A stretch of 64,000 nt of DNA from Haloferula luteola (lineage in GTDB: Bacteria; Verrucomicrobiota; Verrucomicrobiia; Verrucomicrobiales; Akkermansiaceae), in contig NZ_JACHFD010000001.1 in assembly GCF_014201715.1 (NCBI RefSeq), positions 62,001 to 126,000 on the forward strand. The letters are read 5' to 3'. A program made the position numbers and the translations under genes. The notes beneath the pieces are model-generated. The model ran no database searches, had not been told where the DNA came from, and saw only the letters and a program-made list of their open reading frames with translations. The first letter of the stretch is position 1, and each line of letters opens with the position of its first letter. This document shows, one piece after another, positions 42,377 to 57,006 of this stretch.

Positions 42377-42418
42377 TCGATTGAGGAGGAGAAAGACGTG
42401 ATCAATGGCCTCCATATT

Positions 42419-42446
42419 ACTTGTGACAATGTATGTAATGCGGAAT
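42419..42446 (+). other. dif-like Xer site, left end of inovirus element
   Basis: Left arm ACTTGTGACAA (42419-42429) resembles the bacterial XerC-arm consensus. A six-base core TGTATG follows (42430-42435), then a right arm TAATGCGGAAT (42436-42446). The core and right arm recur at 53548-53564, and nearly at 55619-55635, while the left arm differs there. That is the pattern expected if XerC-side strand exchange joined a host left arm to element DNA. Confidence 0.7.
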
Positions 42447-42589
42447 TGACTTCCGACATTTTTCTTGCTAGCCGCCGGGTGGTTTGTAGGCTCCGCGTCG
42501 TTATTTGGATGCGCGCAAGCGTCTCTGCACTGCTCGAAGGACTGCTACCCTGAGAGCGAAATAATCTCGGGTGCTAAGCATCTGCGATC

Positions 42590-42627
42590 GCCCCGGCGGG
42601 ATTGCTACCCCGTCGGGGCATTTTTTG
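42590..42627 (+). terminator. Rho-independent terminator inside the element's left end
   Basis: An 11-base stem (42590-42600 with 42609-42619, one G-T pair) is followed by six T. It insulates the element from transcription arriving from the left, or from its own right end when circular. Confidence 0.75.
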
Positions 42628-42630
42628 TCC

Positions 42631-43140
42631 ATGGATTCGAATCAGATTTTTCTACTCGGCGTGATGGTGGTGCTCCTGGTCATCGCCAAAAAACTTGGAG
42701 CTTCTGGCGGATCAGGTAGACGAGCTCGGATCGATTACGTTCACAAGCCGCTCCTCACACCGGCGGAACGCTCGTTTTTCGGGGTTCTTCAATCCGTGGT
42801 TCCTCCTGGCTACTTCGTCGCCATCAAGCCACGGATGGCCGATGTCCTGGACCCTTCGCCGAAACTTCGCGGCCGGGTCAGACACGCGACTTTCTTTAGA
42901 ATTTCGTCCAAACATTTCGATTTTGTGGTCTGTGAAACCGGCGGTTTCGAGCCTGTCGTCGTCATCGAATTGGACGATTCCTCACACAATAAATCCCGTG
43001 CAAAAGCCACGGATTTCTTTAAGGATCAAAGCCTAGCCTCTGCAAAGCTACCAATCCTGCGAGTGAAGGCCGCCCGCTCCTATGTCGCTGCGGACCTTGC
43101 GGCTTCTCTCAATCAAAAGGTCTCGGAGAGATTTTCTTGA
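42631..43140 (+). CDS. DUF2726 (restriction-endonuclease-like) protein with N-terminal membrane helix
   Basis: 169 residues from the ATG at 42631. A membrane helix (FLLGVMVVLLVIAKKLG) leads to a DUF2726-like domain: PLLTPAERSFFGVLQSVVPP, HFDFVVCETGGFEPVVVIEL, then DDSSHNKSRAKATDFFKDQS. The acidic and basic positions match the PD-(D/E)XK-like nuclease fold that this family is related to. As a phage-carried accessory gene it could act in exclusion of other phages or in DNA processing. No SD is visible; a terminator sits directly before it. Confidence 0.7.
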   Translation: MDSNQIFLLGVMVVLLVIAKKLGASGGSGRRARIDYVHKPLLTPAERSFFGVLQSVVPPGYFVAIKPRMADVLDPSPKLRGRVRHATFFRISSKHFDFVVCETGGFEPVVVIELDDSSHNKSRAKATDFFKDQSLASAKLPILRVKAARSYVAADLAASLNQKVSERFS

Positions 43141-43358
43141 CGTCTCTAGTTAGGTCGTTCTAAGCGTCGAATACGTTCCGCGGTGCGGTTCGTCCGGTGT
43201 AGCAGCCGGAGGGTGTAGCAGCCCATTCACCATCCAAATAACAACCTAGCATCAGAGACCAACAATGCGCCCCGCATGCGTACCCGTGTGTGTGCCTACC
43301 CTTTCCGGGGTGTGGCGTTTGATCTATTCCCGCCTCTGCTGCGTAACACGCGGCCGAC
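43141..43358. other. Non-coding interval in phage element, possible origin region
   Basis: No gene is supported. It carries a GTGTGTG tract (43290-43296) and GGGGTGTGGCG (43310-43320); the latter recurs at 51412-51422 inside a hairpin. GTAGCAGCC is repeated at 43198 and 43218. Repeats before a rolling-circle initiator gene are compatible with an origin, but no nick site can be assigned. Confidence 0.35.
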
Positions 43359-43673
43359 GTGCAGGCTAAGGCAGCAAATCTGTTAGGATCGGGGGCAACC
43401 CCTACAGAACTGCCCGCCCTTCGATGCCGAGAGGCTTGCTCGGATATGGCCGACTCGTCGCCGGGCGCTCTCGGGAAGTCTTCTCAGGGTGTCCGGCGGC
43501 AGGCCCATCCGTTCTTCACGGATCGCCGCAAATGGCGGAATCACCGTTGCCCTCTGGTGACGGATGCCTGGGCAACGGGATCGGGCGATGCCGTCGAACT
43601 TCTCACCGGTCAACTGGCCTTCCCCTTTTTCGGGCAGGATCACTTGCCCCTCTCGAAAGGAGGTCGCCGATGA
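43359..43673 (+). CDS. Small hypothetical phage protein
   Basis: 104 residues if it starts at the GTG at 43359; an in-frame ATG lies at 43446. Its TGA overlaps the ATG of the next gene as ATGA, and the shared SD (AAAGGAGGT) falls in its last codons. This coupling, repeated at the next junction, is the main evidence that it is translated. The sequence is polar with no recognised domain, and its composition is not clearly protein-like. Confidence 0.4.
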   Translation: MQAKAANLLGSGATPTELPALRCREACSDMADSSPGALGKSSQGVRRQAHPFFTDRRKWRNHRCPLVTDAWATGSGDAVELLTGQLAFPFFGQDHLPLSKGGRR

Positions 43674-43984
43674 TCTGCCACGCGACGCTCAATGTAGCAT
43701 CCGTGCACCTTTCGGCCCCCACCCGTGGAGAACGTGAGCAATGGGTCAAACTCGCTGTGGCCACCTGGTGCCGTTCGAGTGCCTTTGCCGAGTGCTTCTC
43801 GGAATATTGGGGCACCGTTCCGGGCGTTGAGTTCACTCTCTCAGGTGCCCATTGCCATCTCACGCTTCTGGTCCGGAAGCGTCTGACCTCCTCTCAGCTC
43901 GAACTTTTGAAAAGCGCATGGGGGCTTGGTCACATTGGCCTCCAATACCCCACCACCAAGAAAGGAGGTCGCCGTGCCAGCTGA
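43670..43984 (+). CDS. Small hypothetical phage protein before rep
   Basis: 104 residues. The ATG at 43670 is preceded at seven-base spacing by AAAGGAGGT, a near-perfect ribosome binding site. The sequence has EREQWVKLAVATWCRSSAFA and a hydrophobic-rich strand pattern (VEFTLSGAHCHLTLLVRKRL) but no known motif. Its stop overlaps the rep start by 11 bases. Position directly before the replication gene suggests a role in replication or its control; this is inference. Confidence 0.65.
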   Translation: MICHATLNVASVHLSAPTRGEREQWVKLAVATWCRSSAFAECFSEYWGTVPGVEFTLSGAHCHLTLLVRKRLTSSQLELLKSAWGLGHIGLQYPTTKKGGRRAS

Positions 43985-45299
43985 GCGATTGAATCGGTTA
44001 GAAGCGGGTCGACCATCGCTCGAAAACGGTGCTCTGCGTCTTCGTCCGGTGCGAGCCGACGAGATCGAGGACGCTCGCAAGCGCTACGCCGAAGCCTGCG
44101 CCCGTTTTGGCTTCGATTCCTGTTTCCCAACTTTCTGCCGGGAAGTTCGCGGATGGTCCTGGGACGATCTTTTCGGCTGGATGGCTGAGCCCTCGCGCAC
44201 AGCCTCGCCGATTTCGCCGGACGGCCGGCGCATGTATACCCTTACCCGGTCGGCTCAGCCCGACTCCCCTGGGAGGGAGCGGCCAGAAAGGTCGAGGGGG
44301 GCCGGCCGGGTTCTCCGTCAATCGGCCCCTGCCCCTGGCGGTTTCCTCCCCGGGTCGGCGCTCCACGTGCGCCAGCAATTTCCCCCATCCTGGTTCACCC
44401 CTGCGGGAGTAGCCAAAAAGCGCCGGCTTTTGGAGGCGAAAGGCCTTCCGTCGTTCAAGGGCTGGCGCTTCATCACTCTCACCCTGGCCCGCGACAACTT
44501 CGGCGGCTGCCCACTGACCGGCTTCCTTGAAGGCCGCGAAAAACTCCGGCGCTTCATGGAGTCGGCCCGCCGCCTCGGTCTCTGGAAGCGTGGGGTGAAG
44601 TGGGCATGGAAGCTCGAATTTCAGCGCGACGGCTGGGCCCACTGGCATCTCCTCATCGATCGCAAGGCGAAGTTCTCGATTGCCGAGATGGAAACCGTGG
44701 ATCGGATTTGGGGGCTCGGCCGCACCAATTGTCGCCGCATCTCCAAGAGCGAGTTCGGGTATCAATTCAAATACGCCTTCAAGGGCGTCTACCAGGACGA
44801 CGGATCGGGCCTCGCTGTCCCGCAATGGTTCCTCAGTTACTACGAAGCATCTAGTAAAGGGAAACGTCCCCTGGCCTTTTCGCGCTGCCGCTTCTGGCAG
44901 ACATCCAAAGATTTTTACACTGGAGCGCGAGCAAAGGTGGATGAACGGAAAGCGAAAAATTCGTCCCTGGTCCCCCGCCCTCTTTCCGAGGTGCTCGAAG
45001 ATCAGGGGCGAAGTGTCGTCATCTGCGCTCGCGATCATTCGGGCCGATACGTCGAGGGCAAGACCCTCCGTCTGGCCGTCGATTTCAAGGACTTCCTCCG
45101 ACTGTTCCTCTGGGACGTGGAGAACCGGGCCGGGGTGGTGCTCTCCGTCCGGTCGTTCGTCGTAGCACCCGACACATTGGATCGAACCATCAACCAACAC
45201 GAAAAATGGCAACTGCAACCCCTACACCAACGAAACCGGCTGACACTTCGAACGGCCAACCGAATCCGCCACGAGCGGCGCAACCTGGAAACATGCTGA
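43974..45299 (+). CDS. Rolling-circle replication initiator (HUH endonuclease, inovirus Rep/pII-like)
   Basis: 441 residues from a GTG at 43974 that follows AAAGGAGGT by four bases. Motif I is WRFITLTLARDNFGG. Motif II (HUH) is DGWAHWHLLIDRKAKF, with the HxH metal pair. Motif III is EFGYQFKYAFKGVYQ, whose tyrosines and lysine match the nicking Tyr region. Such proteins nick the double-stranded origin to start ssDNA synthesis in filamentous phages and related plasmids. The N-terminal 140 residues are unrecognised. It overlaps the next gene by 94 bases. Confidence 0.85.
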   Translation: MPAERLNRLEAGRPSLENGALRLRPVRADEIEDARKRYAEACARFGFDSCFPTFCREVRGWSWDDLFGWMAEPSRTASPISPDGRRMYTLTRSAQPDSPGRERPERSRGAGRVLRQSAPAPGGFLPGSALHVRQQFPPSWFTPAGVAKKRRLLEAKGLPSFKGWRFITLTLARDNFGGCPLTGFLEGREKLRRFMESARRLGLWKRGVKWAWKLEFQRDGWAHWHLLIDRKAKFSIAEMETVDRIWGLGRTNCRRISKSEFGYQFKYAFKGVYQDDGSGLAVPQWFLSYYEASSKGKRPLAFSRCRFWQTSKDFYTGARAKVDERKAKNSSLVPRPLSEVLEDQGRSVVICARDHSGRYVEGKTLRLAVDFKDFLRLFLWDVENRAGVVLSVRSFVVAPDTLDRTINQHEKWQLQPLHQRNRLTLRTANRIRHERRNLETC

Positions 45300-45574
45300 C
45301 GCGGGCTGACTATGGTTTGGCGATTACGGGCCGGGTCGATGCCATTGAGCCGTTGCGGCATCGCCAGGGCGTCGGCAAAGGCAGCGGGCAGCCCTACAGC
45401 TTCTGGCAACAATCGGCCTCGATCGCGATCGGCGGCGAGATGTTCGAGGTGAATTTCCGTGCTGATACCGACCCCGGCGGCGACCTGGTTCCCTTCGAGC
45501 TCGATGAAGTCGTGCGGATCCGCGTGGGCGCTCCTCGCGTCTACAACGGGAAAACCTCTTTCGACGCGGCGTAA
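45206..45574 (+). CDS. Candidate phage ssDNA-binding protein (pV-like)
   Basis: 122 residues. A disordered Pro/Thr-rich N-terminus (about 30 residues) leads to a compact beta-rich domain: LTRADYGLAITGRVDAIEPL, SIAIGGEMFEVNFRADTDPG, then LDEVVRIRVGAPRVY. That is compatible with an OB fold. Location immediately after rep, overlapping it, is where filamentous phages place the ssDNA-binding gene V product. The assignment rests on position and fold-like pattern, not on a conserved motif. Confidence 0.55.
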   Translation: MATATPTPTKPADTSNGQPNPPRAAQPGNMLTRADYGLAITGRVDAIEPLRHRQGVGKGSGQPYSFWQQSASIAIGGEMFEVNFRADTDPGGDLVPFELDEVVRIRVGAPRVYNGKTSFDAA

Positions 45575-45810
45575 TGGATTCCGTCGTTGCGCAGAAAGCG
45601 GAGGCGTCGGCCTTTGATGAATGGTGGGCCAGCGAGGCTCCTGACTTCACGGACCCTGAGCGGGCGGCTCGGCTCGCCTGGGATGCTGCGTTGTGTGCGG
45701 CTGGCTCGGCATGCCTGCAACCCGCCGAGGCGGGCCCCCTGCCTCCGAAGAACGGCAACGAGATCCATTCGGCTGTCACTCGCCTGCATTCCTGGAACTC
45801 ACGGCAGTAA
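45574..45810 (+). CDS. Small hypothetical phage protein
   Basis: 78 residues. The ATG overlaps the previous stop by one base (TAATG), so it is translationally coupled. The core ASEAPDFTDPERAARLAWDA is helical and acidic. There is no membrane segment and no recognised domain. It is the last gene before a strong terminator, closing the replication module. Confidence 0.6.
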   Translation: MDSVVAQKAEASAFDEWWASEAPDFTDPERAARLAWDAALCAAGSACLQPAEAGPLPPKNGNEIHSAVTRLHSWNSRQ

Positions 45811-45866
45811 AACCCCGGGTGGTTGCCCCGCGCCAGCGGGGCAGCCCCCGGGGTTTCCTTTCCTCG
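45810..45866 (+). terminator. Double-stem terminator after replication module
   Basis: Outer stem AAACCCCGGG (45810-45819) with CCCGGGGTTT (45847-45856) encloses an inner stem GCCCCGC (45825-45831) with GCGGGGC (45836-45842). TTTCCTTTCC follows. It separates replication from structural genes. Confidence 0.85.
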
Positions 45867-45893
45867 TTTAACAAAAACATAACTGACAAACAC

Positions 45894-46163
45894 ATGCCCT
45901 TCCTCCCCTGCGCCCGGTGCGGCGATCAAATCGAATGCGATCAAGAGGATTACGATTTGGCGAATGATCCTGAAGCCTTCCTTGGTGGGTGCGGGACCAT
46001 CTGTGCGTCCTGCGCTGAAGAGCGGGATGCCGACGTTTGTACGACATGTGCCGTAGAGCGCGAGGAGTGCAGCGAGTGCGGGGAAATGTTCGTTCCTGGT
46101 CAGCTGTGGAACGGGCAATTCAGGGACAAGTGCAACGACTGCATCGAGGCGGAATACAACTGA
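45894..46163 (+). CDS. Cysteine-rich zinc-ribbon-like phage protein
   Basis: 89 residues from the ATG at 45894. Five CxxC pairs are visible: CARC, CASC, CTTC, CSEC and CNDC, spaced as for two or three zinc ribbons, with acidic residues between (DQEDYDLANDPEAF). There is no membrane segment. It could bind nucleic acid or act as a small regulator. It sits between the replication terminator and the coat genes. The longer upstream frame crosses the terminator and is rejected. Confidence 0.65.
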   Translation: MPFLPCARCGDQIECDQEDYDLANDPEAFLGGCGTICASCAEERDADVCTTCAVEREECSECGEMFVPGQLWNGQFRDKCNDCIEAEYN

Positions 46164-46260
46164 GCCCGATAGGCACACGCCAAAGATTTTCACCCTTTCC
46201 CCACTGAGTTCTTGGAGCCGCGGCCCTGGGTTCCATGGGAAAACCAAGACGCAAAACAAC

Positions 46261-46362
46261 ATGGATTGGATCGCATTTTCCGCTGCCGCTGGGGCGATGG
46301 TCACCGCGTCGGCCATCATCATCGTTCAGTCAACGGTGAGGCGGGCAATCGATTCAATCTGA
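46261..46362 (+). CDS. 33-residue membrane protein, minor coat candidate
   Basis: A short open frame, MDWIAFSAAAGAMVTASAII followed by IVQSTVRRAIDSI. It has an acidic start, one hydrophobic helix (about 4-22) and a basic end (RR), the layout of filamentous-phage coat proteins pVII/pIX and of coat proteins without a signal peptide. It lies directly before the 43-residue major coat candidate. It is too short for routine gene calling. SD is weak. Confidence 0.6.
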   Translation: MDWIAFSAAAGAMVTASAIIIVQSTVRRAIDSI

Positions 46363-46376
46363 TCCACTACAAAGCA

Positions 46377-46508
46377 ATGGACGAAGCCATCACCACCGCC
46401 ATCACTTCCCTTACCGGCACTGTGACCGGGATCGGAACGGCAGCCATGGCCCTTGTCGTCGCGTTCGCCATCTGGCGCAACGTCCGCAAGGCCGGTAACA
46501 AGGTGTAA
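46377..46508 (+). CDS. Major coat protein candidate (pVIII-like)
   Basis: 43 residues: acidic, amphipathic N-terminus (MDEAITTAITSLTG), a hydrophobic membrane helix (about 19-32, GIGTAAMALVVAFA) and a basic C-terminus (WRNVRKAGNK) to face the DNA. Length and charge pattern match Pf3-type major coat proteins, which also lack a signal peptide. A rho-independent terminator follows eight bases later, as after gene VIII in Ff phages, which boosts coat expression. Confidence 0.78.
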   Translation: MDEAITTAITSLTGTVTGIGTAAMALVVAFAIWRNVRKAGNKV

Positions 46509-46515
46509 ACCGTTG

Positions 46516-46547
46516 GCCCCTCTTCGGGAGACCGGAGAGGGGCTTTT
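46516..46547 (+). terminator. Terminator after the major coat candidate
   Basis: Stem GCCCCTCT (46516-46523) with AGAGGGGC (46536-46543), followed by TTTT. It is the equivalent of the central terminator behind gene VIII in filamentous phages. Confidence 0.82.
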
Positions 46548-46564
46548 GTAGTCATCCCCTCCCC

Positions 46565-48079
46565 ATGCATGGATCCTCAACAATTCGCGGAAATCGTAGC
46601 GCACTTGGAAGCGCTGCAGGAAATCGGATCGATCACGGCCGGACTCATGGTCGGCGGGTTCTTGGGTATTTTGCTCTCGCGTTGGGTTGGCTGAACTTCG
46701 CCCAATCTGCCGAGTTCAATCACTCGGCGCCGCACGCGACGATCAACGCCACAGTTGGGCGCAGTGTGGTCACCACAGGGAGCGGGACCTTTGAATATAG
46801 TTTCAACGGTTCGACCTGGGTCACAAAGACGGCGGGTGCGTTCATCGGTGAGGAGTTCAAGAGCAGTGGCTACACCTATTGGTACGGCACCTTCAAGGAG
46901 ACGCAGGAGATTCCGATGAACACTGTTAGTCCGATGTATTCCTCCATTTGGACGGTTTGGGTTCGTCGGTCTTCCGGCCACGATTCCGTGGTCTTTGACG
47001 TTACATTGGACGATTCCACCGTGAACTATAAGGGCGGCTCAAGTGGTGGTAGCGCTCCTCACTTTGTTTTAGATCCGGTCACGATTGACCTGGGCGCGGA
47101 TGCGTCGGCTCCAATCACGGTTGATGATCCGTATTTTCAGGAGCCCGAGCCGAGTCCCTGGGAGAAGTTTTGGGGCAAGGACATCACTGTCCCCATCGTC
47201 TCTGAGCCTGGGCAAGATTACGTTGAAATTGAGATCGGCGGGAAAACCTACCAATTCCCGGTCGAGCCATCCGGGAGCGATGAGTATGGATCGCTCGCCT
47301 ACGTGACGCTCCCGATCCCTGAAGGCTGGGACGGCACTGCGACGATTGACGGGGTCACGGGGCAATTTGCCCCGAACATCATTTCCACGGGCAATGAGAC
47401 CATGCCCTACATCCTCAATCCCTACGCCGGATCTAGTAGCAGCCTCCCAACAGGCATGTCTTGGGGTGTGGTCGATCTCCCTGAGGGAATGACGCGGGGC
47501 GGCGTGGTCCCCCTCCCCGATGGCATGACTCGAGTTGATTTTGGGGCATCCACTGGCGGTTGGCTCCCGGTGATCCTGGGCAACTCGAACGGCTCCACGA
47601 CGGTGCACAATCAATCCATGGATCAGATTGTTTCCTCCTCGGTGTCTGGAACAGTGACCAGCTCAGGAGGCTCGACAAGTGGCGGCAGTGTTTCCAATTC
47701 AGGTTCGAACTCGTCAGCTTCGACGGGCTCCACCGGTCTTGAAGATTTGGAAGAACAGGCGATCGATGCAGGCTCAGCGGCAGGCTTTAATGGCGGCGGA
47801 GATGAGGAAGGCCCGAACGAATCGCTCCAAGGCATCGCCGGTCAGTGGGAGACGATCAAGTCTCAGATTCAAGGCAAGTTTGGCGGGTTTGCTCCATTGG
47901 CAACTGGAGGCCTTCCGACTCAATCGAATCTCACTTTGAATCTCGACTTCGGCCGTTTCGGCTCTCGGCAACTGGTGATCGATCTGACCGCAACCCCCTT
48001 CCCCACCATTCGCTCCCTCTCCCTGGTCATCCTCACCTTTCACGCTGCCTGGTTCTTCATCCGATGGATTAAGGTCTAA
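46565..48079 (+). CDS. Attachment/adsorption protein (pIII-like minor coat)
   Basis: Up to 504 residues. A signal sequence is embedded at about residues 30-48 (GRRVLGYFALALGWLNFAQS). Two beta-rich N-terminal regions follow (HATINATVGRSVVTTGSGTF; DYVEIEIGGKTYQFPVEPSG), then a Gly/Ser-rich linker (SSGGSTSGGSVSNSGSNSSA) and a C-terminal membrane anchor (SLSLVILTFHAAWFFIRW) with a short basic tail. This receptor domain-linker-anchor layout is that of pIII, which binds the host pilus or receptor at the virion tip. The true start is uncertain: the only in-frame ATG gives a long arginine-rich leader and overlaps the 41-residue frame. Confidence 0.75.
   Translation: MHGSSTIRGNRSALGSAAGNRIDHGRTHGRRVLGYFALALGWLNFAQSAEFNHSAPHATINATVGRSVVTTGSGTFEYSFNGSTWVTKTAGAFIGEEFKSSGYTYWYGTFKETQEIPMNTVSPMYSSIWTVWVRRSSGHDSVVFDVTLDDSTVNYKGGSSGGSAPHFVLDPVTIDLGADASAPITVDDPYFQEPEPSPWEKFWGKDITVPIVSEPGQDYVEIEIGGKTYQFPVEPSGSDEYGSLAYVTLPIPEGWDGTATIDGVTGQFAPNIISTGNETMPYILNPYAGSSSSLPTGMSWGVVDLPEGMTRGGVVPLPDGMTRVDFGASTGGWLPVILGNSNGSTTVHNQSMDQIVSSSVSGTVTSSGGSTSGGSVSNSGSNSSASTGSTGLEDLEEQAIDAGSAAGFNGGGDEEGPNESLQGIAGQWETIKSQIQGKFGGFAPLATGGLPTQSNLTLNLDFGRFGSRQLVIDLTATPFPTIRSLSLVILTFHAAWFFIRWIKV
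46569..46694 (+). CDS. 41-residue membrane protein, minor coat candidate (nested)
   Basis: An open frame beginning MDPQQFAEIVAHLEALQEIG has an acidic amphipathic segment, one hydrophobic helix (about 20-36, SITAGLMVGGFLGILLS) and a terminal RWVG. It overlaps the start of the pIII-like gene in a different frame. Composition and size resemble pIX/pVII. Only one of the two overlapping frames may be used in the first 130 bases, or both; the coat-like pattern makes this one credible. Confidence 0.5.
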   Translation: MDPQQFAEIVAHLEALQEIGSITAGLMVGGFLGILLSRWVG

Positions 48080-48093
48080 TTGCACCTCTTCTA

Positions 48094-48432
48094 ATGGCGT
48101 CTCCTACTATTTTTTGGCTCAATAACACCGCAAAGGTGCTTGGGAAGATGGTCCCTCTTATCGGGACCATTTTCGGTTGGTTTGTGTGGGTCAATGACCT
48201 GGGCGAGAGAATCATCGCTGGCGGTCTGAATTTCATCATCGATCGCTTGGACGCGATCGACACAACAGCCTTTTCTAATGCCTCCTTCGCCTCTGTGGCA
48301 GGGATCGGCATTGCCAATGCGGTCTTCCCCCTGAGCGAAGCCATCACGATGTGGAGTGCTCTCTTTACGGCGATGCTGGCAATCATCGTCATTCGCTGGG
48401 TCAAATCCTTCATTCCGACCGTCTCCAACTGA
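48094..48432 (+). CDS. Minor coat protein (pVI-like), three membrane helices
   Basis: 112 residues with three hydrophobic helices: MVPLIGTIFGWFVWVNDLG, a middle amphipathic/hydrophobic one (FASVAGIGIANAVFPLSEAI) and MWSALFTAMLAIIVIRWVKS with a basic end. Size, topology and position between the pIII-like and Zot genes match gene VI. It would sit at the virion tip with pIII. It ends directly before the zot ATG, with no gap. Confidence 0.72.
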   Translation: MASPTIFWLNNTAKVLGKMVPLIGTIFGWFVWVNDLGERIIAGGLNFIIDRLDAIDTTAFSNASFASVAGIGIANAVFPLSEAITMWSALFTAMLAIIVIRWVKSFIPTVSN

Positions 48433-49170
48433 ATGATCCAGTTCGTTACAGGAACTCTTGGAGCCGGGAAAACTTTCCATTCCATGCGTCTCCTCATGGA
48501 GGGCTTGGCCGGGGGGAAAACGGTCGTTACCAATATCGACGTTGACCGGGAGAAGGTCTTTCGGCGTGTCGCGATCCATCACCGGCGGAAGCTTGAGGAA
48601 GACCAACTGCGCGTCATCGACGTAGAAGAGACTCCGGATTGGGAATCAGAAATTCCCTATGGCGAAGCCGAGGGAACCGTCTTGGTCGTGATGGACGAGG
48701 CACACCTCTTCTACAACTCTCGCGACTGGGCCGAGACGGCTTCGAAGCACAAGCGGCTTTTGTCCTTTCTCACGCAGTCCCGGAAAGCCGGCGTCGATGT
48801 GATTTGGATCACTCAGAGCGGCGGGAACGTGGACAAGCAATTCCGCGAGCTGGCTGAGTGGCAATTGGCAATCGTCAACGCGAGGCACCTTCCCTTGGGC
48901 TGGCTCGGCGCGGTTCCGTGGCAAGCCTACATCGTCAAGCGGATCTCCGTTTCCGGCGGCTACGTCGTGAAGAAGTCTTGGCACTCCTATGATTCCTGGA
49001 TCAAGGGCACCTACCGGACGCAAGCGCTTCTAGACTCGACAATGCGCGGCCTTGCCGAGCGAGCCGAATGGCTCGGCTTAAGAAAGCTCTCCAAAGTGGG
49101 ACTCTTGGAGCAAGCCCGGCTTCGTTGGCTCGATTGGTGGCCGCAAATTCGAACCAAGTTTGCCAAATGA
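48433..49170 (+). CDS. zot: Zot/pI-like phage assembly ATPase
   Basis: 245 residues. Walker A is GTLGAGKT (residues 7-14) and Walker B is VLVVMDEA (83-90), followed by HLFYNSRDW and FLTQSRKAGVDVIWITQS, which is the characteristic sensor segment of the Zot/FtsK-like family. It drives extrusion of the virion through the inner membrane. Typical pI proteins continue into a membrane helix and periplasmic domain; here the protein stops before one, and the next gene, overlapping by four bases, opens with a hydrophobic helix. Confidence 0.9.
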   Translation: MIQFVTGTLGAGKTFHSMRLLMEGLAGGKTVVTNIDVDREKVFRRVAIHHRRKLEEDQLRVIDVEETPDWESEIPYGEAEGTVLVVMDEAHLFYNSRDWAETASKHKRLLSFLTQSRKAGVDVIWITQSGGNVDKQFRELAEWQLAIVNARHLPLGWLGAVPWQAYIVKRISVSGGYVVKKSWHSYDSWIKGTYRTQALLDSTMRGLAERAEWLGLRKLSKVGLLEQARLRWLDWWPQIRTKFAK

Positions 49171-50369
49171 GGTTCTTTCTTATCCTGATTGGGCTCGGGC
49201 TGGCGGGTTGGTATGGCTGGCGGTCGGTGAAGTCGGCGTTGTCGTTCGAGTCGGCAAAGGAGGTCATCCAGAAGGTGGAGGATCAAACTCAGCCGCAAAA
49301 GAAGCCCCGCAAGCCGATCGAGAACGGAATAGCCTCAGGGATCCGGCAGAGCCTGGGCACGGACAAGGAACAAGCCCCCTTTTACGCTCGAACGGTTCGC
49401 TTTGAGAATCGGCCGGCACCTGCCGTCGAGATGCTCTCTCAGCTGGCAACCGTTGGCGTCAATGCATTCGCTGACTCGGTCACGCGCTCGATCGTGCTCA
49501 CCGGCCCGGGCGACCGGGTCGAGGCCATCGCTCTTGCCCTGGAGAGCGGCGATTGGGTTCCCGGTTCCTGCGGGTGCCAAGCATTTGCGGTGTACGTCTC
49601 CAGGAAGGCCGAGAAGGGTTTCGATCTAGTGGCTGCACTTTCGGCCGTGGGAGGTCACAAGACGACGGCATCCATCGGCGGCGGCGATGTGGTGGTCACG
49701 CTGGGGCTGGATGAAGTGGTGGCCGCTCTCCAGGTCATTGCCGATGGCGAGGCGGTCGACGTGATCCAGCGGCCCCACGTGCGGCTTCTGGACGGAGTTC
49801 CGGCGCGTGTTGAAGCGATTGAGGAAGTTCCGGTTCCTTCGACCGTCGTCTCTCAGGGCATCGCGCAAACCTCCATCGAGTTCCGCAAGGTTGGCCTGCA
49901 GCTGACGGTGGAACCCGTGTTCCTGGGCGGCGATCGCGTGCGCCTGTCGATCCGACAGGAAAACGGGCTTCTTGGCTCGCCGGTCGAGATCGAGGGCAAT
50001 GATATCCCCGTGATTCAGACTCAGGCAGTGGAATCCGGAGTTGAGCTCACCGTTGGCCAGTCGGTTGTCCTGGGAGGAATGAGGACTTACCGGAAGACGC
50101 TTTCGCGTGGCCTTCTGCGCAACGTGGAGAGCGTTGAAGAGGGAGCCTTGTATGTGATTCTCTCGACGTTCTCAGACGCTCCACGGGCGACGCTGCCGGT
50201 TCCTGACGCCTCCGGCCCGCTCGAAGGTCCAGAATGGTTTGAAGACGACTCCAGCGGCCCCCTTCCCTCCCCTGCGGATTGGATCGATGGGGAGCTGTTG
50301 CCCCGAAAGGGTTGGGAAGAAGAAGAGCGTGAGTTGATTCGCTCGAAGCTTGGCCATCCTGCAAAGTGA
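49167..50369 (+). CDS. Phage-encoded secretin (pIV-like)
   Basis: 400 residues from the ATG overlapping zot. An N-terminal hydrophobic segment (FFLILIGLGLAGWYGW) acts as signal or anchor. The N-domain region (FENRPAPAVEMLSQLATVGV, SVTRSIVLTGPGDRVEAIAL) matches secretin N1-type folds. The secretin core has VGLQLTVEPVFLGGDRVRLS and QAVESGVELTVGQSVVLGG, the signature strands. pIV forms the outer-membrane exit pore. Having its own secretin frees the phage from host type II/IV secretins. The C-terminal 60 residues are acidic and Pro-rich. Confidence 0.85.
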   Translation: MRFFLILIGLGLAGWYGWRSVKSALSFESAKEVIQKVEDQTQPQKKPRKPIENGIASGIRQSLGTDKEQAPFYARTVRFENRPAPAVEMLSQLATVGVNAFADSVTRSIVLTGPGDRVEAIALALESGDWVPGSCGCQAFAVYVSRKAEKGFDLVAALSAVGGHKTTASIGGGDVVVTLGLDEVVAALQVIADGEAVDVIQRPHVRLLDGVPARVEAIEEVPVPSTVVSQGIAQTSIEFRKVGLQLTVEPVFLGGDRVRLSIRQENGLLGSPVEIEGNDIPVIQTQAVESGVELTVGQSVVLGGMRTYRKTLSRGLLRNVESVEEGALYVILSTFSDAPRATLPVPDASGPLEGPEWFEDDSSGPLPSPADWIDGELLPRKGWEEEERELIRSKLGHPAK

Positions 50370-50563
50370 GGAAAATTCTCTGCACCTGTCGGCTTCCTCG
50401 ATCAAAGTGGCCTGACCCATGGCCTGATGGGATGCTTTGCCGGAAGTGTCGGGGAAATCGTGGTGTTGCGAAGCCCTGGGAATTATCAGCGGCTCGGTCG
50501 CTTGTGCGCTCGGTAATGGCTGCTCGTGCTCGTATCTTGGTGGACAGAATGAAAAAAAGCTAA
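50366..50563 (+). CDS. Small Cys-containing phage protein
   Basis: 65 residues from a GTG overlapping the secretin stop by four bases. CTCRLP and CRKCRG provide a possible zinc site, and the C-terminal half is basic (LVRSVMAARARILVDRMKKS). It resembles a small nucleic-acid-binding or regulatory protein. Coupling to the secretin gene is the main evidence. Confidence 0.5.
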   Translation: MRKILCTCRLPRSKWPDPWPDGMLCRKCRGNRGVAKPWELSAARSLVRSVMAARARILVDRMKKS

Positions 50564-50675
50564 AAATCAATTGATTTGAATAACCTGAACTCAATGCCAC
50601 CCTTCGCACCGCAACGGCACAGAACGCCCTCACCCCCCTGATCTTTAGTTGCTTGTCACCAGAAACAAAATCAGC

Positions 50676-50813
50676 ATGAACTTTGACGTGGTTTCGATTT
50701 TTGATCCACAATGGCCCACCGTAAATTTACTGATTATTTTTATAGGAGTTGTCATTATTTCATATTGGATTGCGTCAGAAATTAGGCACTGGCGATCCCG
50801 AAGAAAGAAATGA
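50676..50813 (+). CDS. 45-residue membrane protein, phage element
   Basis: An open frame, MNFDVVSIFDPQWPTVNLLI and then a membrane helix (IIFIGVVIISYWIA) with a basic end (RHWRSRRKK). It is coat-like in topology, but lies after the secretin in AT-rich DNA. It could be a holin-like, immunity or second minor coat protein. There is no SD. Confidence 0.4.
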   Translation: MNFDVVSIFDPQWPTVNLLIIFIGVVIISYWIASEIRHWRSRRKK

Positions 50814-50973
50814 ATTGAAAATCAGATCGTTATGCGATTGGCATGATGAAAATTATTCAGAAATAGGGATTTTCCACACGCGTCTTCGCGTTATTTCTCA
50901 GAGAATTCGCGTAAATCGGGCGATTAATATTGCTCGGAAGTCGGGCGTTATATTTTATCCGGCCGCCTCCTAG
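50749..50973 (+). CDS. Possible small phage protein overlapping the 45-residue frame
   Basis: 74 residues. The part beyond the overlap (KIRSLCDWHDENYSEIGIFH, then RLRVISQRIRVNRAINIARK) has protein-like composition in AT-rich DNA and ends 43 bases before a terminator. Only the position and composition support it, and the start is unclear. Confidence 0.3.
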   Translation: MSLFHIGLRQKLGTGDPEERNELKIRSLCDWHDENYSEIGIFHTRLRVISQRIRVNRAINIARKSGVIFYPAAS

Positions 50974-51015
50974 CAGGCTACATACATCGTTCCCCCGAGC
51001 TGCATGTAAACCAGC

Positions 51016-51080
51016 GGCTCCTGCTCTCGACGCTCGAACACCCCCAAAGGTTCACTAGCAACGGGAGCAGGAGCCTTTTT
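51016..51080 (+). terminator. Long-stem terminator of the phage late operon
   Basis: Stem GGCTCCTGCTC (51016-51026) with GAGCAGGAGCC (51065-51075) and five T after it. The loop is 38 bases. It closes the transcript that carries the structural and assembly genes. Confidence 0.7.
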
Positions 51081-51246
51081 CGTCTTTTTGGCTTCTCATT
51101 GATGCCCAATGTGGTCTCCTGAAATCGCTTACAGTTTAAGGGAAGGCCACAACGATTATTTGTGACTTGCCAAGCTAAGATCTCCACCAACTTCACCAAA
51201 AAACCCTTCAAAATTGGCGAGTTGGTGGGGATCGATCTCTTCAAAT

Positions 51247-52026
51247 ATTTTACATGGCTGCGGGAGGCCGACTTGTCACTTCTTCGGAAGATAGGTGAAC
51301 TGAGTATTAGGCATTGAGAGCTTACGACTGCCCGCGTAGAAGGCGTTACCTCCCTAGTCCACCGATATTCGGGTACAGGAAATTGGTGACTAACCTGGGA
51401 TGGTGTGTGTAGGGGTGTGGCGAAAGAGACTTCGTCACACCCCGATCACGAAAGAAAAAATGCGAGGTCCCCTTCCAGGCCTCCCTCCACCAATGAATCC
51501 ACCCGAGCTACTTCAGGTCATAGGGATCTGATTTTTAAGCGTTTACCGCTAATTCGGAGGAGATGAAATCTTGTTCATCAACTTGATTTGCACGGTGAGC
51601 TTTTAAAATCACCCATGTTCAAAATCAGAAAACCTTGAACAATCGGCCCGTTATGGTCGATTGTTCAGACAATGCAGATTGCGAAGTGGAGCCGAGAGTC
51701 CCTGGGGGGGGATTCCGTCTCAAGCGCCAATGTTTGCGCCGCTGTAACTCTGCAGGACTCCACATGCATTGACGTCGGGGGACGTCAGACACTGTGGGCG
51801 GGCTCGGCGTCTCTTAGACGTCGGGCCCGTTAAATTTGCGGATTTCCCCCCAATTGAGGGGGTTGGCCTTTGTTGTTCGTTGGATGACAGTGATATCCAT
51901 GGGAGGCCAGTCGTCTCGACGTTGGTCTGCTTCGGCCGCTCAGGAGCGAAGCAGCCCCCCTAATCTTCGGGTGAGAAGTCCGGGGGCTCCCATCAGCCAA
52001 TCCCACTACGATAAGTTGCAGTTAAC
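51247..52026. other. Non-coding interval in the phage element, with a strong hairpin
   Basis: I see no gene I can support in these 780 bases. They contain a 13-base stem (51412-51424 with 51431-51443, one G-T pair) whose left arm begins with GGGGTGTGGCG, repeated at 43310. Poly-G/C tracts follow at 51706 and 51846. An intergenic region with hairpins after the late genes is where filamentous phages keep packaging and origin signals. Confidence 0.4.
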
Positions 52027-52359
52027 ATGAAATCTCTAGATCTTGATTGGGACCATGTATCGTCCTTTAATGTGATAGTAACAATAAGAAGTGGCCTTGG
52101 GAATCATTCCGTTGAATCGACTCACTTTTTTTCGGAAAAAGACGTGCTTCCTCTGAGAATAAAATGCTTAAATTCACGCTGCGAGGATGGCGGCTTCGAT
52201 CCTAAGGAACTAATTCAAGGAGCTCTAGTAGCTAACAATGGAAAGATTGACATCAATCAATCGATTGATTGCGGAGGGATAATTCAGATTCTCAGCAAGG
52301 AATCTAAGTCATGCGGTTGCAAGTGTATTGTTGTCGGAAGGATCGTCACCAAGGGGTGA
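52027..52359 (+). CDS. Hypothetical cargo protein, phage element
   Basis: 110 residues, AT-rich. The sequence has LDWDHVSSFNVIVTIRSGLG and a CxC-rich end (IQGALVANNGKIDIN; SCGCKCIVVGRIV), with cysteines at CLNSRC and CGCKC spaced as in a zinc-binding domain. There is no signal peptide. It does not resemble phage structural proteins, and its codon use differs from the core. Function unknown; it could be a moron gene. Confidence 0.5.
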   Translation: MKSLDLDWDHVSSFNVIVTIRSGLGNHSVESTHFFSEKDVLPLRIKCLNSRCEDGGFDPKELIQGALVANNGKIDINQSIDCGGIIQILSKESKSCGCKCIVVGRIVTKG

Positions 52360-52464
52360 GAGACCCCTTATATCCTGGTTAGTTCATTCGGGCGAAGCCT
52401 CGGATCAAGTGACTTTTGGGCCGTGAAACCAACGATCGGGGCTGGCCCATTCAAAGTGGGGGTT

Positions 52465-52562
52465 TGGGGGAGAGCATTTCCCCCAGCCGCCGGAGGCTGA
52501 ATGCTTGGGGGGTCTAGGGGGTTCTCCCCCATGCGGGGGAGTTTGAGGGGGCGGGCCCCCTC
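52465..52562. repeat. Three GC-rich hairpins in tandem
   Basis: TGGGGGA/TCCCCCA (52465-52471 with 52479-52485), CTCCCCC/GGGGGAG (52524-52530 with 52535-52541) and GAGGGGGC/GCCCCCTC (52545-52552 with 52555-52562). G runs lie between them. The cluster is not followed by T runs, so it does not look like terminators. Confidence 0.5.
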
Positions 52563-52605
52563 GAGGGTTTGCGGGCCCGATCTGGCGACCGGACCCGTAT
52601 TACGG

Positions 52606-52839
52606 TTAGAGTTGGAAGTGATGCACCTCCCCTTGGGCTTCGAACAAGTGCCCCTGCTCGATGGATTTGAGGACTTTCACTGCCCCAAACGCTCTAACGG
52701 GGAAAGCCCTGCAGGCGTCGACGACGGTGTAATCGGCCCAAAGATAGTGCTCATTTTCGACGACGGCTTTCAGTTCGATGGCTGAGGCGTCGGTGTAGAT
52801 GTTGGCGAGGGCGGCTTGAATTCGGTCTACGAGGTTCAT
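52606..52839 (-). CDS. Small hypothetical protein, minus strand of phage element
   Basis: 77 residues from the ATG at 52839 (MNLVDRIQAALANIYTDASA), the only clear minus-strand gene in the element. The sequence is coherent (IELKAVVENEHYLWADYTVV, then ACRAFPVRAFGAVKVLKSIE) and GC-rich. Position opposite to the main operon, next to the right-end regulator, would suit a repressor or immunity protein, but there is no HTH. Upstream 389 bases to 53228 hold no other gene. Confidence 0.5.
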   Translation of the reverse strand: MNLVDRIQAALANIYTDASAIELKAVVENEHYLWADYTVVDACRAFPVRAFGAVKVLKSIEQGHLFEAQGEVHHFQL

Positions 52840-53228
52840 AGTATTAAACGGTGCGAATGCGCACGCTACGCGCGCGCAATTCTTGGGAGCCGATCCGCCC
52901 AGGTGGGGTCCCAGCGCAGTCACCGAGTGCAACGAGGGGAACCCCCGTTCGAGCATGGCACGCAGGTGCTTAGGGACTCGTTCCCTTAGCACGCTGCCGC
53001 CACGCGGAGATAAGCGGGGTTGACGGCGCGGGGTGCCTGGGGCGGGGTCCGGTCTTCCGGACGGGGTGCGGAGCTGCGGAGGGTCGGCGACGGTTCCTCA
53101 ATGCCCCCTTCCCTGCCCTCTTTTTATCCATCCCTTGCTCAATAGACTTGCTAACAAGTAAACCTAACTTAATATTTTCCCGCCTTCCTGAAGGCGTTAA
53201 ATATCAAGTAAAATTTGGGTTTTTGACG
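52840..53228. other. Non-coding interval between divergent small genes, operator at its right end
   Basis: No supportable frame. The region is GC-rich up to 53110, then turns AT-rich and carries the palindrome at 53147 and the sequence conserved in the second element. It probably contains the promoters of both flanking genes. Confidence 0.4.
53147..53158. promoter_or_regulatory. Conserved palindromic operator candidate, first copy
   Basis: CTTGCTAACAAG, an inverted repeat, followed by TAAAC; the same 12 bases and similar flanks occur at 55219-55230 before the related gene. It is 70 bases upstream of the right-end HTH gene in both copies. Confidence 0.5.
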
Positions 53229-53534
53229 ATGGGCACAGTTTCACGAAAAGAGGCGCTCCGGGTGAGAGCCTGGGAGAAGTTTTGCGAGAAGGAATGTGGG
53301 GTCTACCCACCCAAGCTTGCAGCGGCGGAATTGGGCATGACCACTCAGGGGGTCCGATCTGCCTCAGATGCCGGTTGGATCAGTTACTTCCTGGTGGGAA
53401 GAGAACGCTTTTATTCCCGCCGGGACGTGTCACGCTACCGGCACAATCCGAGGCGGCCGGGGTGCCCAAATACCCTCCCTCCCCCTCATCTTGGGACCGC
53501 AAATAAGACGCGGGAGATGATTGATTCACTGTAA
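53229..53534 (+). CDS. Small HTH-like DNA-binding protein at the right end of the phage element
   Basis: 101 residues from the ATG at 53229. Residues 20-65 (CGVYPPKLAAAELGMTTQGV, then WISYFLVGRERFYSRRDVSR) have the pattern of an excisionase/MerR-like winged helix: helix, turn, recognition helix, then an aromatic wing. Three bases after its stop begins the dif-like site. The gene and its upstream region are duplicated at 55219-55618. Placement at the attachment site suggests control of Xer recombination or repression of the phage; this is inference. Confidence 0.6.
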   Translation: MGTVSRKEALRVRAWEKFCEKECGVYPPKLAAAELGMTTQGVRSASDAGWISYFLVGRERFYSRRDVSRYRHNPRRPGCPNTLPPPHLGTANKTREMIDSL

Positions 53535-53536
53535 GT

Positions 53537-53564
53537 CGTTGATATAGTGTATGTAATGCGGAAT
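53537..53564 (+). other. dif-like Xer site, right end of the inovirus element
   Basis: Left arm CGTTGATATAG (53537-53547), core TGTATG (53548-53553) and right arm TAATGCGGAAT (53554-53564). Core and right arm equal those at 42430-42446. The left arm and the six bases before it (GTAAGT) equal those at 55602-55618, so these belong to the elements and not to the host. Confidence 0.7.
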
Positions 53565-53718
53565 CAACTCAAGGGACTGTAGAAAAGAATCGAAACAGCT
53601 TGGGGAATCAGGTGCGAAGGTGCATTATTGGGTGTTGAGACTCATTTCAGGGTGAACCACATACTCTAGAGATTCGTTTTGGCGATGTTCCGCAATTCTA
53701 AGATCTCTAATCACTGAA

Positions 53719-54210
53719 ATGAAATCACATTATCTTCACTTTCTCCTAATATCCCTAATTTCAAGTCAATTGTTGGCGTGCGCATTTACACCAAGTGAAC
53801 TTCACTACAACGCACCCAAAGACATTGTTCAATTTGGAGTTTTTCAAAAGGATGCATTTATTCCAGACGAAAAGCCACTCTCACAAAACATATCTCACGA
53901 TTTAAGGGAGATTGCTCTGAGTCTGCCGATCTGGGATGGCGGATGGATAAATTCAGAGCAATGGATATACAAAAACTCTAGTAGTGGCATTGACTCTCAA
54001 GAATGGGCAATCCCGGCGGATGGCGCCCAAATTTCATATAATTTGAGGCGGCTTCATTCTTCTGAAGATGGAGCGATACGAGTTGAATTACGACGCCCCT
54101 CTTCAAAATTATTCACTCCTAGCGGAGGTAGATATCTACCATGGACTGCTATCATTAGACGAACCAGCAATGGATGGATTATCGAATCCAACTCAAAGAC
54201 AATTATTTAG
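53719..54210 (+). CDS. Putative lipoprotein, satellite element
   Basis: 163 residues. The signal sequence has a lipobox, LISSQLLACAF, with cysteine at 21. The mature part is polar and beta-rich (FGVFQKDAFIPDEKPLSQNI; LPIWDGGWINSEQWIYKNSS). There is no known domain. It is AT-rich with codon use unlike the backbone, a sign of transfer. A surface lipoprotein on a phage element could block superinfection, as known for other prophages; here that is only inference. Confidence 0.6.
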   Translation: MKSHYLHFLLISLISSQLLACAFTPSELHYNAPKDIVQFGVFQKDAFIPDEKPLSQNISHDLREIALSLPIWDGGWINSEQWIYKNSSSGIDSQEWAIPADGAQISYNLRRLHSSEDGAIRVELRRPSSKLFTPSGGRYLPWTAIIRRTSNGWIIESNSKTII

Positions 54211-54676
54211 AGCTGACTTAATGACCCAATCTCCGTCATCGCCTTTTCTTCCTTTGATCTCTCATTCGGTCATATTGCCTTCTCCATTTCGGCTTAAACA
54301 AATCTCTAAGGCATCGTTTGATCTTCTGGGAGAACTTGAAAAAATTCATATGGGACTTTAAGTTTTTGGTTTTCTTGGTGTTGGAATGCCTCCGGAATCC
54401 CAGCAAACTCAATGAGATGCCCAAAAACTTTTGCTTCCTCGAATAGGTATTGGCTTAATCTTAAGGGGTGCGTCTACCAGTTTCACCCGTTCGAAGGCCA
54501 TTCCCTTCGCTTAGCCATGGCAATGGTGTTTGCATTTCTTGGGGAATGTCGAACACCAATTGCATGTTTTTGATTTCTCAAAAATGAATGAAATCTTCAA
54601 TCCCCCTAAGCTGTTGATGGTAGGCATGTTAAATTTCACATCTCGACATTATTGTTTGGAGGCTTACCTTCGAACG
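54211..54676. other. Non-coding interval, AT-rich
   Basis: I see no gene. Short frames here have no SD and no coherent composition. It probably holds the promoter for the XRE-type gene that follows. Confidence 0.4.
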
Positions 54677-55141
54677 ATGGCATCAACAGGAAGCAGGCTC
54701 AGCAAAGCTCGGGAATCTCAAGGCCTCACGGTTTTTCAGGCCTCCTCAAAAACAGGGCTCTCCGCTCAACAAATCGAGGATTTTGAGAGCGATACGATTC
54801 ACCCAACTCCGCTTGAAATTCGAGGGATTTTAGCTGGGCTCGGATACTCAAGGGATGAGGCTGTTCAGTTTCTGAAGGGGGCGACTGGGACCACAATTGG
54901 GGAATTCCAAAGACGGAAGGCGAGTTTACCCCCTGCCCCACCATTTGTGACTTTCTCAAAGGGAAGAATATCACTTCATGACCGGGGTTCGAAACGAAAT
55001 GACTACTGTATAGAAGGAACCCAGGTCGATTCAGCCGACAAAATCCTATCTCTTATTGATCATTTGTCTCGAAAGGAATGGATCACCAAAAAGCATCTAA
55101 GAGATTTTGTTCGATTCTCTTCCCAACTTCTTGACGACTGA
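54677..55141 (+). CDS. XRE-family (lambda-repressor-type HTH) regulator, satellite element
   Basis: 154 residues from the ATG at 54677. The N-terminal HTH is clear: GSRLSKARESQGLTVFQASS, KTGLSAQQIEDFESD, with the QxxxSxxTGLSxxxIxxFE pattern of XRE proteins. The C-terminal half (SADKILSLIDHLSRKEWITK) is helical and may dimerise or sense a signal. It is the likely repressor of the element. The longer start at 54530 adds unlikely sequence. Confidence 0.72.
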   Translation: MASTGSRLSKARESQGLTVFQASSKTGLSAQQIEDFESDTIHPTPLEIRGILAGLGYSRDEAVQFLKGATGTTIGEFQRRKASLPPAPPFVTFSKGRISLHDRGSKRNDYCIEGTQVDSADKILSLIDHLSRKEWITKKHLRDFVRFSSQLLDD

Positions 55142-55218
55142 TCCTAAGAACAGCGGGACAAACTCCAGGCCTCTGCTTTGTTGCCAGCCATGAATTTGCG
55201 TGAACCTCCGCTTACCAT

Positions 55219-55230
55219 CTTGCTAACAAG
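55219..55230. promoter_or_regulatory. Conserved palindromic operator candidate, second copy
   Basis: CTTGCTAACAAG, identical to 53147-53158, with the same distance to the downstream frame. Conservation although the gene behind it has decayed suggests recent or constrained homology. Confidence 0.45.
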
Positions 55231-55294
55231 TAAACTAAACTTAAGGAGTTCCCGCTTTCCCTGACGCATTAAATATCAATTAAAATTTGAGTTT

Positions 55295-55618
55295 TTGACG
55301 ATAGTCACGGTTTCACGGAAAGAGGTGCTTGAGGTGAAAGCTTTGGAGAAGTTTCTTGAGCAGGTATGCGGGGTGTACCCACCCAAGCTTGCTTCGGCTG
55401 AATTGGGTGTGACCACTCAGGTGTCCGATTTGCCTCAGACGCCGGTTGGATCAGTGACTTCCTTATTGGAAGAGATCGCTTTTATTCCCCCCCGAGACGT
55501 GTCACGCTACCCGCACAATCCGAGGCTGCTGAGGTCTTCAGATCTCTTTCCTCCCCTCCATCTCGGTACCAAAATCAGACGCGGAAGATGCTTGAAACGC
55601 TGTAAGTCGTTGATATAG
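55295..55618 (+). pseudogene. Decayed copy of the right-end HTH gene
   Basis: Homologous to the 101-residue gene at 53229. The ATG of that copy is ATA here, so only a TTG start remains. A one-base loss after the TTQ codons shifts the middle of the protein (VSDLPQTPVGSV...) and a one-base gain before RDVSRY restores the frame. The HTH N-terminus (CGVYPPKLASAELGVTTQ) is kept. The stop again lies at the dif-like site. Confidence 0.65.
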
Positions 55619-55635
55619 TGTATGTAATGCGGAGT
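55608..55635 (+). other. dif-like Xer site, right end of satellite element
   Basis: Left arm CGTTGATATAG (55608-55618), core TGTATG (55619-55624), right arm TAATGCGGAGT (55625-55635), one base different from the other two. It marks the return to host DNA. Confidence 0.65.
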
Positions 55636-56085
55636 CGTCTTTTCCCAAGAACGTCTCCTAGCCGTTCAGCTGTTTCATTGTCGGTGGCAACCCGCTGCCC
55701 TTCCGTGCCGCGGAGATGACACCGTGACGAGGACCCGTCTCTCACCGGATCCGAATGATGTTCCAGATAGCGAGTGCCACCACTCCGACATTCGTCGGTA
55801 TCTGCTGGATCCCCGTCAAGGGAGGGAGATGGAGAGCATCCCCCAGAGAAATCATGCACCAAGATTTCCAACCACTGAGCCTTCCAACCGTGGGCGGAAA
55901 CGGCGGACATCGCCGAACACCCCTTCCCGGAGTCTTCTGGGCAACGCAGAGAGCCGTTGAAGACGATGGGATTCTCTTGACGGACTTCAGACGTTCCAAT
56001 GAGCGAGGCTTCTGATTCCTGATCCATCGGCTCCCCCTTCAGCGGCCAGAATGATTTGGCCGTGTGGACAAATGGGTCACGCAGC
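55636..56085. other. Interval without a supportable gene
   Basis: Several frames are open on both strands but none has coherent protein composition, start signal or family pattern. It is flanked by the satellite and the IS5 remnant and is probably degraded coding or insertion debris. Confidence 0.4.
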
Positions 56086-56090
56086 CAATC

Positions 56091-56770
56091 CATTGAGGCA
56101 GCGAGGAATACGCAGGAAAGCGTCGATCTCGGCGATCCGGTCGTAGCGAGTGCCGATTCGACGGAAGCACTTGATACTCCCGAAGAAGTTCTCAACCACG
56201 TAGCGGCGTTTGCCGACATCCTTCACTTACAAGTGCTGAGACTCCGGTTCTTGCGGCAGGGAATGTTGGCAACGCCTTCCAATGCACAGGATCGATGGTC
56301 GGATCGTGTCGCTGTCGTAGCCCATGTCGGCCATTACCACGAGTCCGGCCATTTCCCCGAGTACTTCAATGGCGCTGCTCCAAGTCCGACTCGCTGCTTG
56401 GCACAAGCTTGAGGTTGATCAGCTTGCCTCTGCTTTTGGTAACCGCGTTGAGCCTGGAGTTTCGTCCGCCTTTGGTCTTGCCGAAGCCTTGTTGCTCCGG
56501 GGTTCTGGAGAAGTGGCTAGCGCCCTGATGGACCTACGCGTAGGTGGCGTCGATGATCTTCAACTCATCGACCGCTGCCGACGCACGTGCCGTTTCCTCG
56601 ACCATCCGTTTGAACAAGCCGCGTTTGGTCCATCGGTTGTGGAAGCGGTAGACGCTCTTCCTTTGGCGATCCTTCGCGGGGAGTGGGTTCCACTGGCAAC
56701 CCGATACGAGGATCCACCCGATGTCGCCAAACGTTTTGAAAAGATCGGCCAGAAGGCGGCCTTCAATCTA
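56091..56770 (-). pseudogene. IS5-family transposase, multiply frameshifted remnant
   Basis: Reading the minus strand across frames gives an N-terminal part (ILVSGCQWNPLP, SVYRFHNRWTKRGLFKRM), DELKIIDATY for the first catalytic Asp region, and the C-terminal DDE signature KRRYVVENFFGSIKCFRRI with Y-x2-(x)-E-x6-K spacing. At least two frameshifts and stops lie between them, and about 150 bases are missing in the middle. Terminal inverted repeats were not found, so the ends are approximate. It is inactive. Confidence 0.8.
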
Positions 56771-56916
56771 AATGCAGGTCAGCACGACCTATCGTTAGGG
56801 CAATCTTTAACTTGCTCGAGAATCACGTCCGATATCTCTGTCACATAATCACTCAAAGCACCAATGGAGCCCAGAAATCCTTTGATCTCTCAAGCACTTC
56901 AATTTGTCCACACGGA

Positions 56917-57006
56917 CTTAGCGTGACGACTGAAACCATCCGCTGGCGACTGAAGCAGATCTATGGCAAACTGGATGTTCACGGTCGCATTGAGGCCGCT
57001 CTGTGA
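56917..57006 (+). pseudogene. LuxR-type HTH fragment
   Basis: The last 30 residues of a LuxR/FixJ-family regulator: LSVTTETIRWRLKQIYGKLD then VHGRIEAAL, the turn and recognition helix with typical end. Upstream sequence to 56812 is open but does not read as the rest of the domain. The gene was probably cut by the IS remnant next to it. The remaining 288 bases to 57293 have no gene. Confidence 0.6.

Follow-up and report, generated by a model that had tools for sequence, protein, structure and literature searches.

A 2.07-kb unit beside a filamentous prophage at dif of Haloferula luteola is probably the rump of an older prophage

The 64,000-nucleotide stretch of Haloferula luteola DNA analysed here (the window) contains a filamentous prophage and, directly to its right, a unit of 2071 bp in which genes for a lipoprotein and an XRE-type protein are followed by a copy of the phage's right end. 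What kind of element such a unit represents was the question raised by this locus. The initial annotation had offered two readings, a satellite depending on the neighbouring phage for mobility or the remnant of a second phage; the former was not supported by the analysis described below, and the latter is the one that we favour.

Three Xer sites, all direct repeats, were found in the window in a tandem layout:

42419-42446, + strand: site L, chromosomal dif, with D arm ACTTGTGACAA, core TGTATG and C arm TAATGCGGAAT
53537-53564, + strand: site M, with the phage-type D arm CGTTGATATAG, core TGTATG and C arm TAATGCGGAAT; right end of the phage and left end of the 2-kb unit at once
55608-55635, + strand: site R, with the phage-type D arm, the core and C arm TAATGCGGAGT, followed by the chromosomal flank

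In the whole genome (4.9 Mb), the 14-mer TGTATGTAATGCGG, made up of core and C arm, has three copies, those at L, M and R, and a 25-mer common to M and R has two matches in the window, against 0.00 expected by chance. M and R have the same D arm, the same core and largely the same C arm, at a core-to-core distance of 2071 bp; with L they have core and C arm in common but not the D arm.

Most members of the genus have a single copy of the motif ACTTGTnACAA-TGYATG-TAATGCGG in their genome, and in G008, G013 and G016 the dif motif lies just after a 327-aa gene, the same gene that is found to the left of L. L was therefore identified as the chromosomal dif, an assignment made by conservation. The GC-skew showed no clear switch at dif within the window.

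The att site of TLC-phi agrees with dif in its XerC and central parts, its XerD site being different (PMC4246890). The same pattern was observed when M and R were compared with L and with the dif sites of the genus: C arm and core match, the XerD arm does not. Since both carry the phage-type D arm, M and R are, judging by their sequence, att sites rather than dif, and the true dif is the left site of the phage, L. A unit of about 2.07 kb between Xer sites had been placed correctly to within a few bases, its flanks being att sites and not dif.

The phage lies between L and M, and its features are as follows:

42436-53553, + strand: neighbouring filamentous phage, about 11.1 kb, with Pfam/PHROGs matches and relatives in seven genomes
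53229-53534, + strand: right-end gene of the phage, intact, coding for a Xis/BldC/MerR-like winged helix according to alignment and structure model

Its gene content comprises DUF2726, Rep (REP_ORF2-G2P), an ssb-like gene, a 504-aa virion-like gene, Zot, secretin, a cargo region and the right-end winged-helix gene. The dif-type flanks, which include the chromosomal dif, together with Rep, Zot/pI and secretin (Pfam, PHROGs), identify it as a filamentous prophage of the Xer-exploiting kind. It resembles CTX-phi, VGJ-phi and their relatives in Rep, Zot and secretin, in insertion at dif with the left dif kept and in the possibility of arrays, but differs from them in its verrucomicrobial host, in having a left-end hairpin and, next to att, a conserved Xis-like gene. 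Rep and the terminal protein had no match among 50,697 phage records, the XRE protein of the unit had none in phage records either, and IMG/VR scans with the terminal protein, the lipoprotein, the XRE protein and Rep gave no match.

The best structural neighbour of the right-end protein model (pLDDT 73) was BldC (Z 6.2, rmsd 2.1, 53 aligned), and the Xis of mycobacteriophage Pukovnik was also matched (Z 6.1, rmsd 2.3, 52 aligned), these middling Z values being indicative of fold class only. XafT, the XerD-activating factor of TLC-phi, may be an analogue, as another small protein of a Xer-using phage; it was not among the listed structural neighbours, which does not count against it. The gene is thus characterised by its predicted fold class and its position, and a XafT-like role is possible but putative.

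Complete filamentous relatives of the phage occur in seven further genomes of the order (G001, G004, G009, G127, G146, G414 and G173). All seven end with the same small right-end gene followed by a TLC-type att, and their left site is of dif type. The D arm of the left site is ACTTGTnACAA, the chromosomal type, in six of them (in G146 the sequence of the locus covers the last bases only of this arm) and ACTTCGCACAA in G173. Zot and secretin are common to the seven relatives and Rep was matched in five; it had no match in G414, and the G173 locus sequence begins inside the phage. In each of the eight phages a GC-rich hairpin, with a weaker stem in G173, lies 106-160 nt inside the left end and is followed by a T-rich stretch, and the sequence between secretin and terminal gene is variable. 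This family of 8-12 kb phages of verrucomicrobial hosts, in which a conserved Xis-like gene lies next to a TLC-type att, documents dif-integrated filamentous phages in the Akkermansiaceae and in another family of the order, together with a likely tandem array (see below).

The 2-kb unit between M and R contains:

53719-54210, + strand: intact 163-aa lipoprotein gene, its product belonging to a small family of Akkermansiaceae lipoproteins
54677-55141, + strand: XRE-type HTH regulator gene, 154 aa from the ATG at 54677 in an ORF open from 54530, intact
55219-55636, + strand: diverged copy of the phage right end, 82% identity, in which the winged-helix gene is a pseudogene

The lipoprotein and XRE reading frames are real, since frames of such length (at least 163 aa) never occurred together in dinucleotide shuffles (0/500). 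Homologues of the lipoprotein were found in eight other genomes of the family, the best with 45% identity in G248; over 162 codons, the differences between lipoprotein and homologue were distributed 78/70/110 over the codon positions, an excess at the third. Its structure model (pLDDT 79) gave no clear structural match. The XRE-type gene matched the Pfam domains HTH_25 (E 3e-6) and HTH_3 (E 3e-5); no relative was found at E 1e-5 among 387 genomes of the order (one genome per species), and weak partial matches were seen in G007, G010 and G155.

A promoter-like sequence, TTGATT-16-TATAGT (53521-53548, + strand), overlaps M and reads into the lipoprotein gene; it is a weak prediction, with one such sequence found against 0.6 expected in shuffles. 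In the circular form of the phage, the same sequence at att would point into the phage's left end.

The right-end copy (55219-55636) aligns with the last 419 bp of the phage (53147-53565) at 82% identity over 420 columns. As the right-end gene and att end seven other complete phages, the shared 419 bp correspond to the terminal module of the phage. In the unit the winged-helix gene has lost its start codon (the ATG at 53229 in the phage is ATA) and has acquired three single-base indels, and its differences from the phage gene are spread over the codon positions (16/16/24), so that the term "decayed", applied earlier to this copy of the HTH gene with its attachment arm, is correct. By these lesions the gene reads as dead, a pseudogene. 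The att end of the copy differs at 1 of 31 positions. Had the two cargo genes accumulated indels as fast as the dead gene, they should contain about nine, yet both frames are still open. The shared block starts at a palindrome, ACTTGCTAACAAGT in the phage (53146-53159) and TCTTGCTAACAAGT in the unit (55218-55231), which is a possible operator.

The absence of replication and coat genes, noted previously, was confirmed: Pfam, PHROGs and tblastx revealed no replication or virion gene in the unit. In tblastx against the eight phages the right end was the sole match and no fossil core gene was seen; the k-mers common to the phages and the unit were those of att only. The unit also lacks the left-end hairpin that each of the eight phages has, the one in G173 being weaker. 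A simple motif scan detected no integron attC in the unit, and scanning the region against Rfam and for tRNA genes gave no hits.

These results bear on the proposal that the unit is a satellite of its neighbour that never had core genes, excised by Xer recombination between M and R, replicated and coated by the helper phage and integrated at dif. The shared D arm and core of M and R would suit such an element, as would the phage terminal module in the unit, the phage providing the intact right-end protein. The unit, however, has no replication gene, no left-end hairpin and a dead right-end gene, and no further copy was found in the genomes searched; we therefore regard a satellite as rather unlikely. 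The more specific assignment to the RS1/TLC type does not hold, since RS1 and TLC-phi have replication modules and Pfam, PHROGs and tblastx found none in the unit. RS1, the satellite of CTX-phi, is like the unit in its tandem position with a filamentous prophage at dif and in having one module in common with that prophage, but it carries replication and repressor genes. TLC-phi, which has an autonomous replication module (PMC4246890), is similar in its lack of virion genes, in its tandem position with a filamentous prophage at dif and in an att with dif-like C arm and core and a diverged XerD arm; it replicates itself and is mobile, whereas the unit has no replication module and its terminal gene is dead.

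The 2.07-kb unit is probably what remains of a diverged filamentous prophage that occupied the same dif earlier, lost its core by deletion and retained two cargo genes. The older phage would have inserted at dif through the host XerC/XerD, using a TLC-type att in which C arm and core, but not the D arm, are those of dif. Every such insertion would leave a full dif on the left side, so that a later phage inserts there and the older one moves to the right; the present phage would have arrived later at that dif and shifted the older prophage rightwards. Deletion would then have removed from the older prophage the genes for replication, coat, Zot and secretin together with the left-end hairpin. 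Its redundant right-end gene would have decayed, while the lipoprotein gene, the XRE regulator gene and both att sites were kept intact.

In the complete phages the stretch between secretin and terminal gene is where the two genes of the unit would fit as cargo, and the decay of the right-end gene is consistent with age. The open frames of the cargo genes, the tandem phage ends in G173 and the restriction of clustered sites to the surroundings of phages among the scan matches listed (see below) also favour a remnant. The initial annotation had named, as an outcome that would refute a satellite, related genomes in which the region belongs to a longer, once-complete phage; this is largely what was seen, in that right-end gene and att form the terminal module of eight phages. 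The lipoprotein and XRE genes themselves were found in none of the complete phages. The unit combines the family's terminal module, at an att linked to dif, with an absence of core genes, and neither traces of core genes nor a relative combining core genes with this cargo was seen; as tblastx against the eight phages gave no core-gene traces, remnant status is what we infer. If correct, the unit illustrates what arrays may leave behind, cargo genes that outlive their phage.

Several observations argue against a remnant. Besides the lack of a fossil core gene in the unit and of its two cargo genes in the complete phages, the sequence that directly follows att at the left end of the unit resembles none of the eight phage left ends, and the deletion would therefore have to begin within a few bases of the site. 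In addition, the bases around the core are the same in M and R despite 82% identity elsewhere, and the sites may therefore still be in use. One could picture the unit as a Xer passenger reduced to a minimum, having no genes for replication or packaging: two cargo genes under selection would lie between att sites that can still be used, and would be excised or taken along in trans by the Xis-like protein of the neighbour and the host XerC/XerD. This is a speculative idea, to which we give little weight; should the unit prove able to travel with the phage, it would rank as a Xer passenger of very small size.

Joint excision with the phage was also considered. The three sites share direct orientation, and recombination between L and R would excise phage and unit together as a 13.2-kb circle, the unit being cargo beyond the right end of the phage. 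TLC-phi has been reported to aid the excision of CTX-phi when in tandem (PMC4246890), and about 5 kb of cargo adjoin the right end of the G173 phage. A composite phage of this kind was found in no genome. We regard such a circle as distinctly unlikely; it is compatible with an origin as a prophage rump and does not exclude it.

A Xer-bounded cargo module resembling pdif modules, in which two genes are moved by XerC/XerD independently of phages, would also be small, with two intact cargo genes and a Xer site at each end. The sites found here repeat the phage att in direct orientation and have its D arm, unlike plasmid dif sites, and the unit has the terminal gene of the phage; a module of this type is very improbable. 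The genome is a draft of 84 contigs, which could suggest an assembly artefact fusing two unrelated pieces. No N occurs within 42000-57000, and the two copies, at 18% divergence, cannot be a single sequence that the assembler duplicated, so that an artefact is hardly credible.

G173 has sites at C1:360759, 361078 and 373247, the first two 319 bp apart. In this interval the left 143 bases of the phage are separated by a single N, a one-base assembly gap, from its right 189 bases, counted up to where the second site ends; identity to the phage is 143/143 and 189/189. These sequences are likely the ends of a second, identical phage copy in tandem that was collapsed by the assembler; a real deletion derivative is possible. 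In a scan of 260 genomes of the family (G249-G259 covered in part), clustered sites occurred only around phages among the matches listed. The same scan (one genome per species) showed no second 2-kb unit among the matches listed. No convincing synteny was found to the right of dif in relatives, which makes the right flank uninformative.

Orphan copies of the terminal gene occur in G001, with an att-like end, and in G097, without a recognisable phage end. The G097 copy (L077:1942-4057) lies near a dif-like site, beside repeats and genes that by eye are DUF433/DUF5615-like. It was rejected as a second 2-kb satellite: the gene is present, there is no right att and the neighbours are toxin-antitoxin-like. 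The orphan phage right end of G001 lies away from dif (C1 at about 395 kb; L074:7887-9147, minus strand) and consists of a 115-bp inverted-repeat segment, one cassette-like gene, the terminal gene and an att with mutations; the 16.5-kb locus gave no match to any core gene of the phage. The inverted-repeat segment is common to L035:12275-12388, L037:11636-11754 and L074:9029-9147 and ends in GACTTGTTACAAC, which equals the D arm of the genus dif over 11 bases; the segment may belong to an attC-like site.

In the G173 phage, six attC-like repeats of about 130 nt lie between secretin and terminal gene (L112:5723-8996, G173:C1). The repeats are self-folding, with a GnnnAAC-type heptamer at the start and a GTTnnnC-type one at the end, and they separate small AT-rich genes on the reverse strand, two of them SMI1/KNR4-like by eye and several with signal peptides. 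By sequence they look like integron attC sites delimiting gene cassettes of integron type; the integron integrase of G173 is on a different contig from the phage. Integron parts in phages are already known (PMC9892861); the string "Inovir" is absent from the text of that paper. At the left end of the G004 phage (L036:2448-3347), a TIR-domain protein with a PADLOC match to TIR-TM (E 1.8e-49) is likely defence cargo.
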